From contig JAILZL010000002.1 of the NCBI GenBank assembly GCA_023512475.1, positions 62,001 to 126,000 on the forward strand: a DNA stretch of 64,000 nt, read 5' to 3'. The notes beneath the pieces are model-generated. The model was not told where the DNA came from, searched no databases, and worked only from the letters and a program-made list of their open reading frames with translations. Source of the stretch: Syntrophobacterales bacterium. GTDB taxonomy: Bacteria; Desulfobacterota; Desulfobaccia; Desulfobaccales; 0-14-0-80-60-11. Both the position numbers and the translations under genes were made by a program. How positions within the stretch are numbered: position 1 is the stretch's first letter; every line of letters begins with the position of its first letter. Positions 9,221-61,357 of the stretch are shown in pieces.

Positions 9221-9589
9221 GAAGCGGAGCAGGCCAGATGATCGCCGGCCGCGTCCAGGCACGGCCGGAGGAAAGTCCGGGCTCCACAGGGCAGGGCGCT
9301 GGGTAATCCCCAGGGGGGGCGACCCCACGGAAAGTGCCACAGAAACCAGACCGCCGTGGTACGGCCACGGTAAGGGTGAAAGGGTGAGGTAAGAGCTCAC
9401 CGGTGCCGGTGGCGACACCGGCAGCCAGGAAAACCCCGCCCGGAGCAAGACCAAATAGGGGAGCGCTGGAGGGTGGCCCGCCCGAAGCTCCCGGGTAGGT
9501 CGCGCGAGGCCCCGGGAAACCGGCGGCCCCAGAGGAATGATCATCACCGGCTCGTCCGGCACAGAACCCGGCTTACGGCCCGCTCCGCC
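9221..9589 (+). ncRNA. rnpB: RNase P RNA, bacterial class A
   Basis: P4 strands GAGGAAAGTCCGGGCTCCACAGGGCAGGG and ACAGAACCCGGCTTACGG; terminal pairing GCGGAGC/GCTCCGC; GGTAAGGGTGAAAGGGTGAGGTAAGAGCTCACC. Confidence 0.96.
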
Positions 9590-9745
9590 ATCTGGGTTCC
9601 GGGGGGAGGGACCCAGGGGTTATCCACCCCGCCCCTCTCCCTCCCCACCCCCACCCCTGAGAGGGGAGCGGGAAGGGGGGATGGAGAAGGGCATGGGTCA
9701 GTGACTCGGGGCTCCCCCATCACACCGTGGGATGATGCTATATCC

Positions 9746-10741
9746 ATGAACCCAACCAGCGTTGTCCTGCCGGCGGTCAAGCCGGCTCCCTCCCCGTACC
9801 TTTCCGTGGTCATTCCGGTCTTCAACGAAGAGGACAATCTGGAGGAGTTGGGCCGCCGGCTTTTGGGCACTCTGGGTCAGGCCGGCCGCCCCTTCGAGAT
9901 CATCCTGGTGGATGACGGCTCCACCGACCGCTCCTGGGAGATCATTGCCGCTTTGCATGAGCGCCACCCGGAGGTCCTCCGGGCCATCCAGTTCCACCGC
10001 AACTTCGGGCAGCATGCCGCGGTCTTCGCCGGGCTGGCCGCGGCCCGGGGCCAGGTGGTGGTGACCCTGGATGCGGATTTGCAAAACCCCCCGGAGGAGA
10101 TCCCCAAGCTGGTGGCCAAGATCGAGGAGGGGTATGACGCGGTGGGGGGCTGGCGGGAGAACCGGCAGGACTCCTGGCTCCGGCGTCTGCCCTCCCGCCT
10201 GGTGAACTTCATCATGAGCCGGGTCACCGGCGTGCCCCTTAGGGATTACGGCTGCATGCTCCGGGCCTACCGCCGGGAGGTGGTGGACAGCATCAACCTC
10301 TGCCACGAGACCTCCAGCTTCATCCCCGCCCTGGCCAACCTCTATGCCCGGCGGGTGACGGAGATCCCCGTAGCCCACGCACCCCGGGCCGCCGGCGTTT
10401 CCAAATACAACCTCTTCAAGCTGTTGCGCCTCAATTTCGACCTGATGACCGGCTTCTCCAACTTCCCCATCCATCTGGTGGGGGTACTGGGCATCCTCAT
10501 CGCCCTCATGGGGCTGGGCTTCGGGTTGTTCCTCTTCATCCGCCGCCTCTTCGTAGGGCCGGAGGTGGAGGGCGTCTTCACCCTGTTCGCCATCCTCTTT
10601 GTCTTTGTAGGCTTGAACACCTTCGGCCTGGCTTTGATCGGCGAATACGTGGGCCGCATCTACCGGGAGGTCCGGGCCCGGCCCCGTTATGTGGTGCGTC
10701 AGGTCCTGGGGGGCGGGCAGGACCAGCCGGGGGCCCCCTGA
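9746..10741 (+). CDS. arnC: Undecaprenyl-phosphate 4-deoxy-4-formamido-L-arabinose transferase-like GT2
   Basis: NRNFGQHAAVFAG, TLDADLQNPPEEIPKLVAKIEEGYD, DYGCMLRAYRR, two C-terminal TM segments, GEYVGRIYREVRARPRYVV; start trimmed out of rnpB. Confidence 0.9.
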   Translation: MNPTSVVLPAVKPAPSPYLSVVIPVFNEEDNLEELGRRLLGTLGQAGRPFEIILVDDGSTDRSWEIIAALHERHPEVLRAIQFHRNFGQHAAVFAGLAAARGQVVVTLDADLQNPPEEIPKLVAKIEEGYDAVGGWRENRQDSWLRRLPSRLVNFIMSRVTGVPLRDYGCMLRAYRREVVDSINLCHETSSFIPALANLYARRVTEIPVAHAPRAAGVSKYNLFKLLRLNFDLMTGFSNFPIHLVGVLGILIALMGLGFGLFLFIRRLFVGPEVEGVFTLFAILFVFVGLNTFGLALIGEYVGRIYREVRARPRYVVRQVLGGGQDQPGAP

Positions 10742-19330: not shown

Positions 19331-19383
19331 GGGTGCCGGCTGCCGCCTGGCCTCGGGAGCGGGCTTCCTGGGCAGGCGGAGGA

Positions 19384-19445
19384 ACGGGGTGGGGGGAGGG
19401 GTCCGGGGAGGGGCAGGGGTCTGGGATCCCTGGCCCCCTGCCCGG
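19384..19445 (+). repeat. Partial copy (3' G-rich hairpin module) of the dispersed intergenic repeat
   Basis: ACGGGGTGGGGGGAGGGGTCCGGGGAGGGGCAGGGGTCTGGGATCCCTGGCCCCCTGCCC resembles 61235-61294. Confidence 0.55.
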
Positions 19446-19448
19446 CGC

Positions 19449-20069
19449 TCACTCCACCGCCTCGTACCCCGCCGGGGTGATGGTGGCGAAGTGATAGGGA
19501 GGGCCCACCTCGTCTTTCACCGCCGCCATCTTTTCCAAAAACTCCCGGCACATGGCCAGCAGGGCCGCCAGGTCCTTCCCCGCCGCCAGCGCCTGAAACA
19601 GCCGCATCTCCATCCCCAGGTTCCGGGGCATGACCACCAGGTTGCCCACCGGCATGGGGTGCAGCGGCTCCCCTTCCTCGCTCCCCAGAAGCAGCAGCCG
19701 GTAGCCCGGCAGCGGCAGGCCGGGGCTGAAGCCCCCCAGGATGAAATAGATGCGTTTGAGCTCCTCCCCCCGGGGCGGGTGGACGGCCTGGTGCTTCACG
19801 ATCCCCTGACGCAGGAAGGCGGCGGCGAAATCAAAGACATCCTCCAGGTCCTCCAGTCCCCGGCGCCGGGAGATCTCCCGGGCCAGCACCTGGGAGAGGG
19901 GGACGCTCACCCCGGCGCCGCCGCTTATGATGGCGGAGTGGCGGGTCAAGGGGAAGAGCTTGGTGACCACGAAATACTCCGCCTTCTCCCCCTCCCGGAA
20001 GCGGGTGGCCCGGGAGTCGGTGGCGAAAAATAGCCCGTGTTCATTGTAGCCGGCCAGGGCCTGGGTCAT
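19449..20069 (-). CDS. Proteasome-fold Ntn-hydrolase-like protein
   Basis: M-T1QALAGYNEHGLFFATD17SR19AT; VVTKLFPLTRHSAIISGGAGVSVPL resembles the proteasome K33/G47 region; similarity by eye only. Confidence 0.65.
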   Translation of the reverse strand: MTQALAGYNEHGLFFATDSRATRFREGEKAEYFVVTKLFPLTRHSAIISGGAGVSVPLSQVLAREISRRRGLEDLEDVFDFAAAFLRQGIVKHQAVHPPRGEELKRIYFILGGFSPGLPLPGYRLLLLGSEEGEPLHPMPVGNLVVMPRNLGMEMRLFQALAAGKDLAALLAMCREFLEKMAAVKDEVGPPYHFATITPAGYEAVE

Positions 20070-46299: not shown

Positions 46300-46356
46300 G
46301 TCGGCCGCCGGACCGTCGGGGACCCATAAGGCGCCTGCGGACCGGAAACAGGCGGT

Positions 46357-46495
46357 GGAAAAACCCTCTTTACCTGATTTGGGTGGGCTGAGGCTGGCCG
46401 ATTTGGCCAGTCTGGCGAAGCCAAATCCCTCCCATTATGGGGTGGGGGAGGGGTAGAGTCTGTAACCCCTGGCCCTTTTCCCGAATTACCTTGTT
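46357..46495 (+). repeat. Dispersed structured intergenic repeat, copy 1
   Basis: GGAAAAACCCTCTTT...GGTGGGCTGAGGCTGGCCGATTTGGCCAGTCTGGCGAAGCCAAATCCCTCCCATTATGGGGTGGGGGAGGGG...CCCCTGGCCC; matches copies at 50473-50600 (reverse) and 61154-61310. Confidence 0.8.
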
Positions 46496-47248
46496 TCCAT
46501 GACCTGCTCAGGGGTCGCCCGACCGGAGGCGCCAAGGTATGGGCCTCCTCAGGGACAGGGGCCACGGGAGCCCTGAGGACGACGGGGACGGGGCCTCCCT
46601 CCCCCGGCAGGGCCGCATGAGGTCCCGGGGCGCCATACCCTCGCCGCCGGTTCCGCCTCCCTACGAGTGGCAAAATTTTCCCGGGCAGGATATATTGACA
46701 GACAGCAGGGGAGAGACTTCCGGGGGAGGCCCCCTTGCCCCTCTGCCAGGACGTTTCCCGCCCCCGGACCTTGGGGCCGATGCAGGCGGGCGTCGCGAAG
46801 GATCGGCCACGGAGGGCCGGGGAGGCGCCGGTGAAGGCCCGGTTGCCTTGCCAGGGGCCGGCCAGGGAGGGGAAAGGGGCAGCGGGAAAGCAGAGCCGTT
46901 GCGCCCCCTGTCCGTGCCGATATGAGTCCTGAGACGGGAGCCCCCGTGAGGACGGAAAAAGAGCCAGGGGGGAGCGGCCCGTCGCCCCGCTCCCTTACCA
47001 CCTTTCCCGCTTCCGGATCGAGGGTGAGGGGAGGGGGTCAGGGAGAGGCGGCAGGAGCCCCCGCTCCCTGGCCCTGGCTGACGGACACGGTTTGCCGCAG
47101 TCTCACCTTACCGGATATTCCTGAGGAAGGCGCCGGGGGCGGCTGGGCGCCTTCTCTGGCGCGGCCGGAGTACACCCCCGCCGCCGGGAGAGAGGACATC
47201 GGCGCCGCCGGGGAGGGCAGAGCCCTCCGGTGCGCAAGGAAGTGACTG

Positions 47249-50383: not shown

Positions 50384-50472
50384 GGCGGCGCCCCAGAGGC
50401 ACCCCCCAAGCCCCGAAGCGCAGTCGGGCTCTCCTCCCCGGCCCGGGAGGGGGGACCTGCCAGGTTGCTGAA

Positions 50473-50600
50473 CCAGCTGATTTGGGGAAGGGGCCAGGGG
50501 CCAAAGACCCCTCCCCCGCCCCATTAACGGGATGTGGCGCCGCCAAACCGGCATATTCGGCCGACCTCATCCCACCAGGCTCCGGAAAAGAGAGTTTTCC
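50473..50600 (-). repeat. Dispersed structured intergenic repeat, copy 3 (inverted)
   Basis: Reverse complement reads GGAAAACTCTCTTTTCCGGAGCCTGGTGGGATGAGGTCGGCCGAATATGCCGGTTTGGCGGCGCCACATCCCGTTAATGGGGCGGGGGAGGGGTCTTTGGCCCCTGGCCCC. Confidence 0.8.
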
Positions 50601-50930
50601 CACAGGCGGTCAGGCGCGGCTGGGTGAAACGACCGGACAAAGGCAGGGGCAGGGGAAGGAAGACGCCGGGAAACGCCGGACATTTCCTCCTTCCCCAGCC
50701 TGGCCTCCCGGGGGAGGGGATAGTGTCCAGGCAGTCCGGGGGGAATCCGGTCCCCGGCGTTTCTCTTCCCTCCTCCACCCGCCATGCCCATCCTTTGCGG
50801 CTGTTTCCCGGCCGCAGTGCGCCGGCGCCTGGAACGGGTCATTCAGGGCGCATCTCGGCCAGCAGGTGGCCGCAGGAAGGCTTAAACGGGATCGTGGGGC
50901 ACGCCGGCGGGTTTCCCCTGTCGTGGGGGA

Positions 50931-60433: not shown

Positions 60434-61152
60434 ACGCCAAACCCATTGCGGTGATCCTGGCCAGCGGTGGCCTGGACAGTTGCGTGGCCGCCGCCTGGGC
60501 CGCCCGGGACTATGAGCTCGCCTTCTTTCACGCCGACTACGGGCAGCGCACCCTCACCCGGGAGCGGGCCGCCTGTCGGGCCCAAGCCGCCCATTTTCAG
60601 GTGCACCGCCTGTGGGAGGTGGATCTGGGCTTCCTGGGGCGCCTGGGAGGTTCCAGCCTCACCGACCCGACCCTGCCCATCCCCCAGGGCGCCCGGGAAG
60701 CCCCCGGACTGCCCAGCACCTATGTGCCCTTCCGTAACGCCCTCCTCCTGGCCGCGGCCACGGCCTGGGCCGAGGTCATCCGGGCCGCGGCGCTGGTCAT
60801 CGGCGCCAACATCCTGGACAACCCCGGCTACCCCGACTGCCGCCCGGAATTCTTCCAGGCCTTTGAGAGGGTCATGGAGTTGGGCACCGGCCCCGACACC
60901 CGCCTGAAAATCCTCACCCCGCTCCTTTACCTGGACAAGGCCGGCATCATCCGCCTGGGGTTGGAATTGGGGGCTCCCCTGCACCTGACCTGGTCCTGCT
61001 ATCAGGAAAATCTCCTGGCCTGCGGCCGCTGCTCGTCCTGCCGGCTGCGCCTCCAGGGCTTCGCCGCGGCGGGGGTGGCGGACCCTGTTCGCTACGTTCC
61101 CGGAGGGCGTCACGCTTGGCGGGAGGCGGAGGGCCCGGGAGAAGGGGCCTAG
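60430..61152 (+). CDS. queC: 7-cyano-7-deazaguanine synthase
   Basis: AVILASGGLDSCVAAAWA PP-loop; TYVPFRNALLLAAATAWAE; CGRCSSCRLRLQGF. Confidence 0.96.
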   Translation: MNAKPIAVILASGGLDSCVAAAWAARDYELAFFHADYGQRTLTRERAACRAQAAHFQVHRLWEVDLGFLGRLGGSSLTDPTLPIPQGAREAPGLPSTYVPFRNALLLAAATAWAEVIRAAALVIGANILDNPGYPDCRPEFFQAFERVMELGTGPDTRLKILTPLLYLDKAGIIRLGLELGAPLHLTWSCYQENLLACGRCSSCRLRLQGFAAAGVADPVRYVPGGRHAWREAEGPGEGA

Positions 61153-61153
61153 C

Positions 61154-61310
61154 AGGCTGCTGAATAACACCCTCCCCGAAATCTGGTGGGATAGGCTGGC
61201 CGATTTTGCCCGTTTGGCTAAGCCAAATCCCATGTATGGGGTTGGGGGAGGGGTGCGGGGGAGGGGAGGGGTCTATGATCCCTGCCCCTCCCCTGAATAA
61301 CCTTTCCCCA
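61154..61310 (+). repeat. Dispersed structured intergenic repeat, copy 2
   Basis: CTGGTGGGATAGGCTGGCCGATTTTGCCCGTTTGGCTAAGCCAAATCCCATGTATGGGGTTGGGGGAGGGG...GGGGTCTATGATCCCTGCCCC. Confidence 0.8.
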
Positions 61311-61357
61311 CAGTCTGCCAAGCTGAAGCCCGCGGGCAGGAGGGGGAGGGCGCCGGA

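Follow-up and report, generated by a model that had tools for sequence, protein, structure and literature searches.

Dispersed intergenic repeats in a Desulfobaccales genome are very probably fossil MITEs, with a right half drawn from an order-wide repeat that may fold as a DNA triplex in a relative

The window analysed here, a stretch of 64,000 nucleotides from a Syntrophobacterales bacterium, contains three similar intergenic sequences with serial hairpins, which raises the question of what kind of element they are and whether their hairpins are under selection. The original prediction described three copies of a unit of about 130 bp. When the sequences were read and aligned, all three proved to be present and homologous, and the unit was found to be about 170 bp long. 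Copy 1 spans 46345 to 46510 on the forward strand (166 bp; 142.3 bits, E 1.8e-37), copy 2 spans 61149 to 61321 on the forward strand (173 bp; 159.7 bits, E 3e-42), and copy 3 occupies 50457 to 50613 on the reverse strand (157 bp; 145.5 bits, E 2.2e-38), downstream of uvrA, whose UvrA domains were found. The second G-run block is missing from copy 1 and deleted from copy 3. A short fourth copy at 19369 to 19467 on the forward strand is internally deleted and keeps the G-rich hairpin module (32.8 bits, E 1.4e-7). A G-rich repeat-like stretch (9588-9780, 23.8 bits) also lies directly 3' of the RNase P RNA gene (9226-9590).

Many copies had been foreseen in the rest of the genome, and the searches bore this out. 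Copy 1 alone as the query gave at least 43 genome matches (best non-self E 3e-25), and a profile built from 25 copies gave at least 143 at E≤1. After weak matches and opposite-strand duplicates among these 143 were dropped, the family comprised at least about 130 copies in a genome of 2.78 Mb. The median copy length is 168 bp, and the mean pairwise identity is 0.69, with a highest value of 0.84. Judged by these sequences, the copies of the window genome are an old, star-like family.

Alignment of the oriented copies with their flanks revealed that they are bounded by imperfect 15-bp terminal inverted repeats (TIRs), YTRR-CAGGCKGTKGAAAAA. In a profile of 79 copies, the left-end consensus is YTRR-CAGGCKGTKGAAAAAC and that of the right end, after reverse complementing, is YTRR-CAGGTKGTTGAAAAAG; conservation in this profile drops to background past position -5. 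A TIR pattern search of the genome returned at least 144 matches, compared with 16 for the reversed control. Among the strict TIR matches listed, 34 fall in the window genome and none in the congeners G001 and G002. Sequence and 79-copy consensus place the left TIR of copy 1 (CAGGCGGTGGAAAAA) at 46349 to 46363 on the forward strand and its degenerate right TIR, ending CCTG, at 46492 to 46506 on the reverse strand. In copy 2, the left TIR (CAGGCTGCTGAATAA) lies at 61153 to 61167 on the forward strand and the right TIR at 61303 to 61317 on the reverse strand. The GGAAAA head noticed earlier as common to copies 1 and 3 is real, but it is the left TIR, an inverted copy of which closes the right end. 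Within a limited body of papers, nothing relevant was found about this TIR or about repeats of Desulfobacca.

A likely partner element was found in a related genus. The genome G003 carries a 1,352-bp insertion sequence (IS) with a perfect 16-bp TIR, CAGGCTGTTGAAAAAC, and a transposase of 376 aa assigned to the IS5 family (NCBIfam NF033581, 295.9 bits); complete or partial IS copies with the same ends occur in other relatives. Because this IS5-family element is flanked by the same inverted repeats, the window repeat is identified as a MITE, and the earlier suggestion of a MITE-like element is upheld by the TIRs, the copy number and the IS sharing the ends. The core of the window TIR is identical to that of the G003 element, and the YTAR-like outer bases and the short non-coding derivative in the window genome also agree with IS5-family elements and their MITEs, whereas the interior of the TIR differs from that of the IS. 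The window genome retains only a broken fragment of a related transposase, 40% identical and with a stop, and no intact copy of the matching IS was found there. Another IS1182/IS5-like element of this genome, with a transposase ORF of 333 aa (G000:C33, L144 2877-3878) and candidate ends TGAGACTGTTGCAAAA and TGTGACCGTTGCAAAA, was set aside as a partner. A MITE of 138 bp in the relative G006 (L277-L283) is younger; it shares the TIR and has other cargo (TGTCATTCTGAGCGAAGCGAAGAATCT...), and 5 of its 7 copies are flanked by exact 4-bp YTAR duplications. No target-site duplication was statistically detectable among 79 of the old copies of the window genome. We infer that an IS5-type element moved the window MITE, a non-coding DNA transposon. 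An IS5-family DDE transposase acting in trans would have recognised its terminal repeat, CAGGCKGTTGAAAAA, and placed copies at 4-bp targets resembling YTAR.

We then compared the insertion sites with those of congeners. The genes flanking the window copies are collinear in G001 and G002, and the site of copy 2 is empty in both: G001 reads CTAAAGCT, and the window reads CTAG-element-CCAAGCT. The CTAG, the outer YTRR of copy 2 (61149 to 61152, forward strand), includes the TAG stop codon of queC at 61150-61152 (QueC, PF06508), so that copy 2 is inserted on a stop codon. Where copies 1 and 3 lie in the window, the congeners have shorter intergenic DNA that is too diverged for a clean empty-site comparison. 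The MITE probably amplified after the split from these two congeners. A simple codon-usage gene call placed 39 copies between tandem, 20 between convergent and 7 between divergent genes, with 13 unresolved. In an independent pass, 14 of 87 gene-3'-facing ends coincided precisely with the stop codon (10 TAG and 4 TGA), the stops of all 87 being TGA (54), TAG (22) and TAA (11). YTAR-like targets would often be TAG stops in a GC-rich genome, leaving many surviving copies on gene 3' ends. A YTAR preference combined with the loss of gene-disrupting insertions would thus explain the stop-codon placement without any special tropism.

The hairpins quoted in the original prediction are present as majority pairings. 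Across 84 copies of the window genome, TGGC/GCCA is paired in 85.5% of cells, the CCCAT/ATGGG pairs in 69.5-93.6%, and the GGGGTC/GACCCC tip in 82.5%. The pairings do not covary. RNAalifold predicted six pairs from 25 copies, none of them covarying or with a compensated change. With 84 copies, the quoted hairpins, the GGGGTC/GACCCC tip and the TIR pairing together showed 62 both-side changes against 59.2 ± 5.9 in shuffled alignments, and a covariation score of 0.112 against 0.108 ± 0.005; an alternative outer stem likewise lacked covariation in these copies. The argument that pairing preserved despite drift reflects selected structure therefore fails, on both the 25- and 84-copy tests, for the window genome, where the pairing is inherited and decaying. 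Only the last hairpin (GGGG/CCCC) is part of a covarying module, which covaries between species and inside G001 and not among the copies of the window genome.

This module, modelled as a G-run plus hairpin H3, corresponds to the right half of the MITE. The model matched 26 of the order's 29 genomes, with at least 150 candidates each in G001 and G006, and none of 113 genomes sampled from the rest of the phylum. When 85,462 species were searched with an exact 28-base pattern, the only hits were metagenome-assembled genomes labelled Desulfobaccales, Syntrophobacterales or Deltaproteobacteria, plus one uncultured bacterium. In some relatives, including G022 from another family, the module lies inside TIR-bearing MITEs; in G001 and G006 it forms units without the TIRs of the MITE, and the window genome also carries a TIR-less form (L290, L291). 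A stretch at 47022 to 47074 on the forward strand of the window, matching dozens of places in G001, is probably what remains of a three-hairpin unit of the form lacking TIRs. In G001, module copies occur within about 130 bases of the start of contigs C48, C50, C41, C18, C33 and C7, so the repeat probably breaks assemblies. Across the order, H3 covaries: 29 cells are changed on both sides against 13.1 ± 3.0 in shuffled alignments, and the covariation score is 0.210 against 0.156 ± 0.009, slid versions reaching at most 0.124. The three serial hairpins of G001 covary as well (17 pairs, 51 cells against 12.1 ± 3.8), H3 being 100% paired. We read the right half of the MITE as a degenerate version of an older repeat spread across the order, which in G001 takes the form of three serial hairpins without the MITE TIRs. 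We consider it very probable that the three window sequences are fossil MITE copies whose right half came from this older repeat, which may be triplex-capable in G001.

The triplex signature was found in G001, where R1, the G-run preceding H3, mirrors the 5' arm of H3 (R2), as in GGGGGAGAGGG-CTT-GGGAGAGGGGG. The rules for purine-motif triplexes are stated in PMC4666352. A mirror-guided parse of 37 G001 copies, covering 407 cells, yielded 335 G·G-C, 52 A·A-T, 11 T·A-T, 3 T·C-G and 2 C·A-T triads; no Watson-Crick pair was present in the rest. When the mirror relation was ignored, 309 of 315 triads were compatible, compared with 269.0 ± 4.4 after shuffling. Restricting the analysis to the 11 distinct haplotypes left 114 of 121 compatible against 100.3 ± 2.7 (0 of 20,000 shuffles), a p-value that overstates independence because the haplotypes share ancestry. 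The rule was tested on the same G001 copies in which the mirror pattern was first seen, none of them a fresh set, and the loops and stems of the parse were chosen by the analyst. Direct-repeat and slid registers gave at most 83% compatible triads in G001. Hairpin H2 does not explain R1: of the 217 cells in that part, no more than 113 are paired with the C arm upstream. Support for the rule is weak outside G001: in relatives, 66 of 72 triads were compatible against 62.3 ± 1.7 (141 of 3,000 shuffles); six copies of G006 gave no signal of the rule, and an A·G-C mismatch occurs in three relatives (L066, L071 and L072). The MITE copies of the window genome do not keep the rule (29 of 36 triads against 28.0 ± 1.0, with 4 of 79 copies parsable). 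Copy 2 retains nine compatible triads, formed by R1 (GGGGAGGGG, the would-be third strand by the mirror rule, 61245 to 61253), R2 (GGGGAGGGG, mirroring R1 across the 4-nt loop TGCG, 61258 to 61266) and Y2 (CCCCTCCCC, the 3' arm of H3, 61285 to 61293), all on the forward strand; one G block has been lost from copies 1 and 3. In G001, changes in R1, R2 and Y2 go together and follow the purine-motif rules G·G-C, A·A-T and T·A-T. As a single DNA strand, the G001 form may thus adopt a class I intrastrand triplex at the hairpin base, with the constraint acting at the DNA level.

Several other explanations were weighed against this one. The covariation in G001 could be mutational, with template switching during replication perfecting imperfect palindromes in the absence of selection. 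The variable base just 5' of H1 can indeed pair with its inner partner in 17 of 22 G001 copies (L240-L256, L295-L307), compared with 6.5 by chance, which could reflect pairing drift or template-switch correction. However, template switching yields inverted or direct copies, whereas R1 and R2 are mirrors that tolerate T opposite A-T, a relation hard to obtain by ordinary copying; we regard this explanation as unlikely. It is quite improbable that selection acts on the repeat as RNA, in a terminator or structured RNA family such as the original prediction had also proposed. The strong hairpins, the compensatory pairs in G001 and the location of copies near gene 3' ends, with convergent outnumbering divergent placements (20 versus 7 here, 8 versus 1 in G001), would suit such a family, but no Rfam match was obtained: at gathering score only RNase P and a tRNA were detected in the window, and the only RNA-family candidates were sub-threshold matches of microRNA type. 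No terminator-like site was found around copies 1 and 2, and the lack of covariation in the window genome likewise argues against selection as RNA. An RNA hairpin, moreover, leaves the mirror relation of R1 and R2 unexplained, and RNA reportedly does not form purine-motif triplexes (PMC4666352). Preservation of the G-runs as a G-quadruplex motif, the mirror pattern being incidental, would agree with the several runs of 4-5 G in a row; a quadruplex needs G-runs only and does not predict A/T interruptions of R1 opposite A-T pairs of the R2-Y2 stem, and we hold it to be very improbable. Finally, REP/BIME and REPIN elements (PMC3733652, PMC3116915) are likewise high-copy extragenic palindromes in serial array, and the TIR-less three-hairpin form of G001 looks BIME-like, but dispersal by a RAYT (TnpA-REP) Y1 transposase is scarcely credible, since PF01797 had zero matches in the window genome (G000, 99.99% complete), G001, G002 and the module carriers G022 and G023, so that there is no RAYT gene here, the window elements have DDE-type TIRs instead, and stems of about 20 bp are a further difference.

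The intrastrand triplex reading places the G001 repeat beside BoxC/PIT/TM-ECO (Holder et al. 2015, PMC4666352). Both are G/C-rich, intergenic and present in high copy, with two purine stems 3 nt apart, a stem of the GGGAGAGGG type and purine-motif triads, which were found in G001 and not in the copies of the window genome. TM-ECO is class II, with its C-rich stem first, whereas the Desulfobaccales module is class I, with the matched C stem last. The module also has a further hairpin at the base of the putative triplex, so its second loop is far beyond the 1-6 nt of the ITxF finder, and, unlike BoxC/PIT/TM-ECO, it is embedded in three-hairpin or MITE units. By its sequence, the G001 repeat agrees with a class I intrastrand triplex akin to these elements.

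The MITE of the window genome illustrates how, when a genome is GC-rich, a preference for YTAR targets can direct insertions to stop codons. As a wider and more tentative proposal, to which we give somewhat less than an even chance, an order-wide Desulfobaccales repeat, numbering over 100 copies in several genomes, has been preserved in its capacity as an intrastrand purine-motif DNA triplex, and in the lineage of the window a copy of this repeat is borne by an IS5-type transposon. Published in vivo tests of the intrastrand triplex motifs BoxC/PIT are negative or indirect (PMC4666352). Copies that vary in three strands at once offer a sequence-based, assay-free test of a triplex role, and, if the proposal is true, their three-strand covariation would be evolutionary evidence that intrastrand triplexes matter in living cells.
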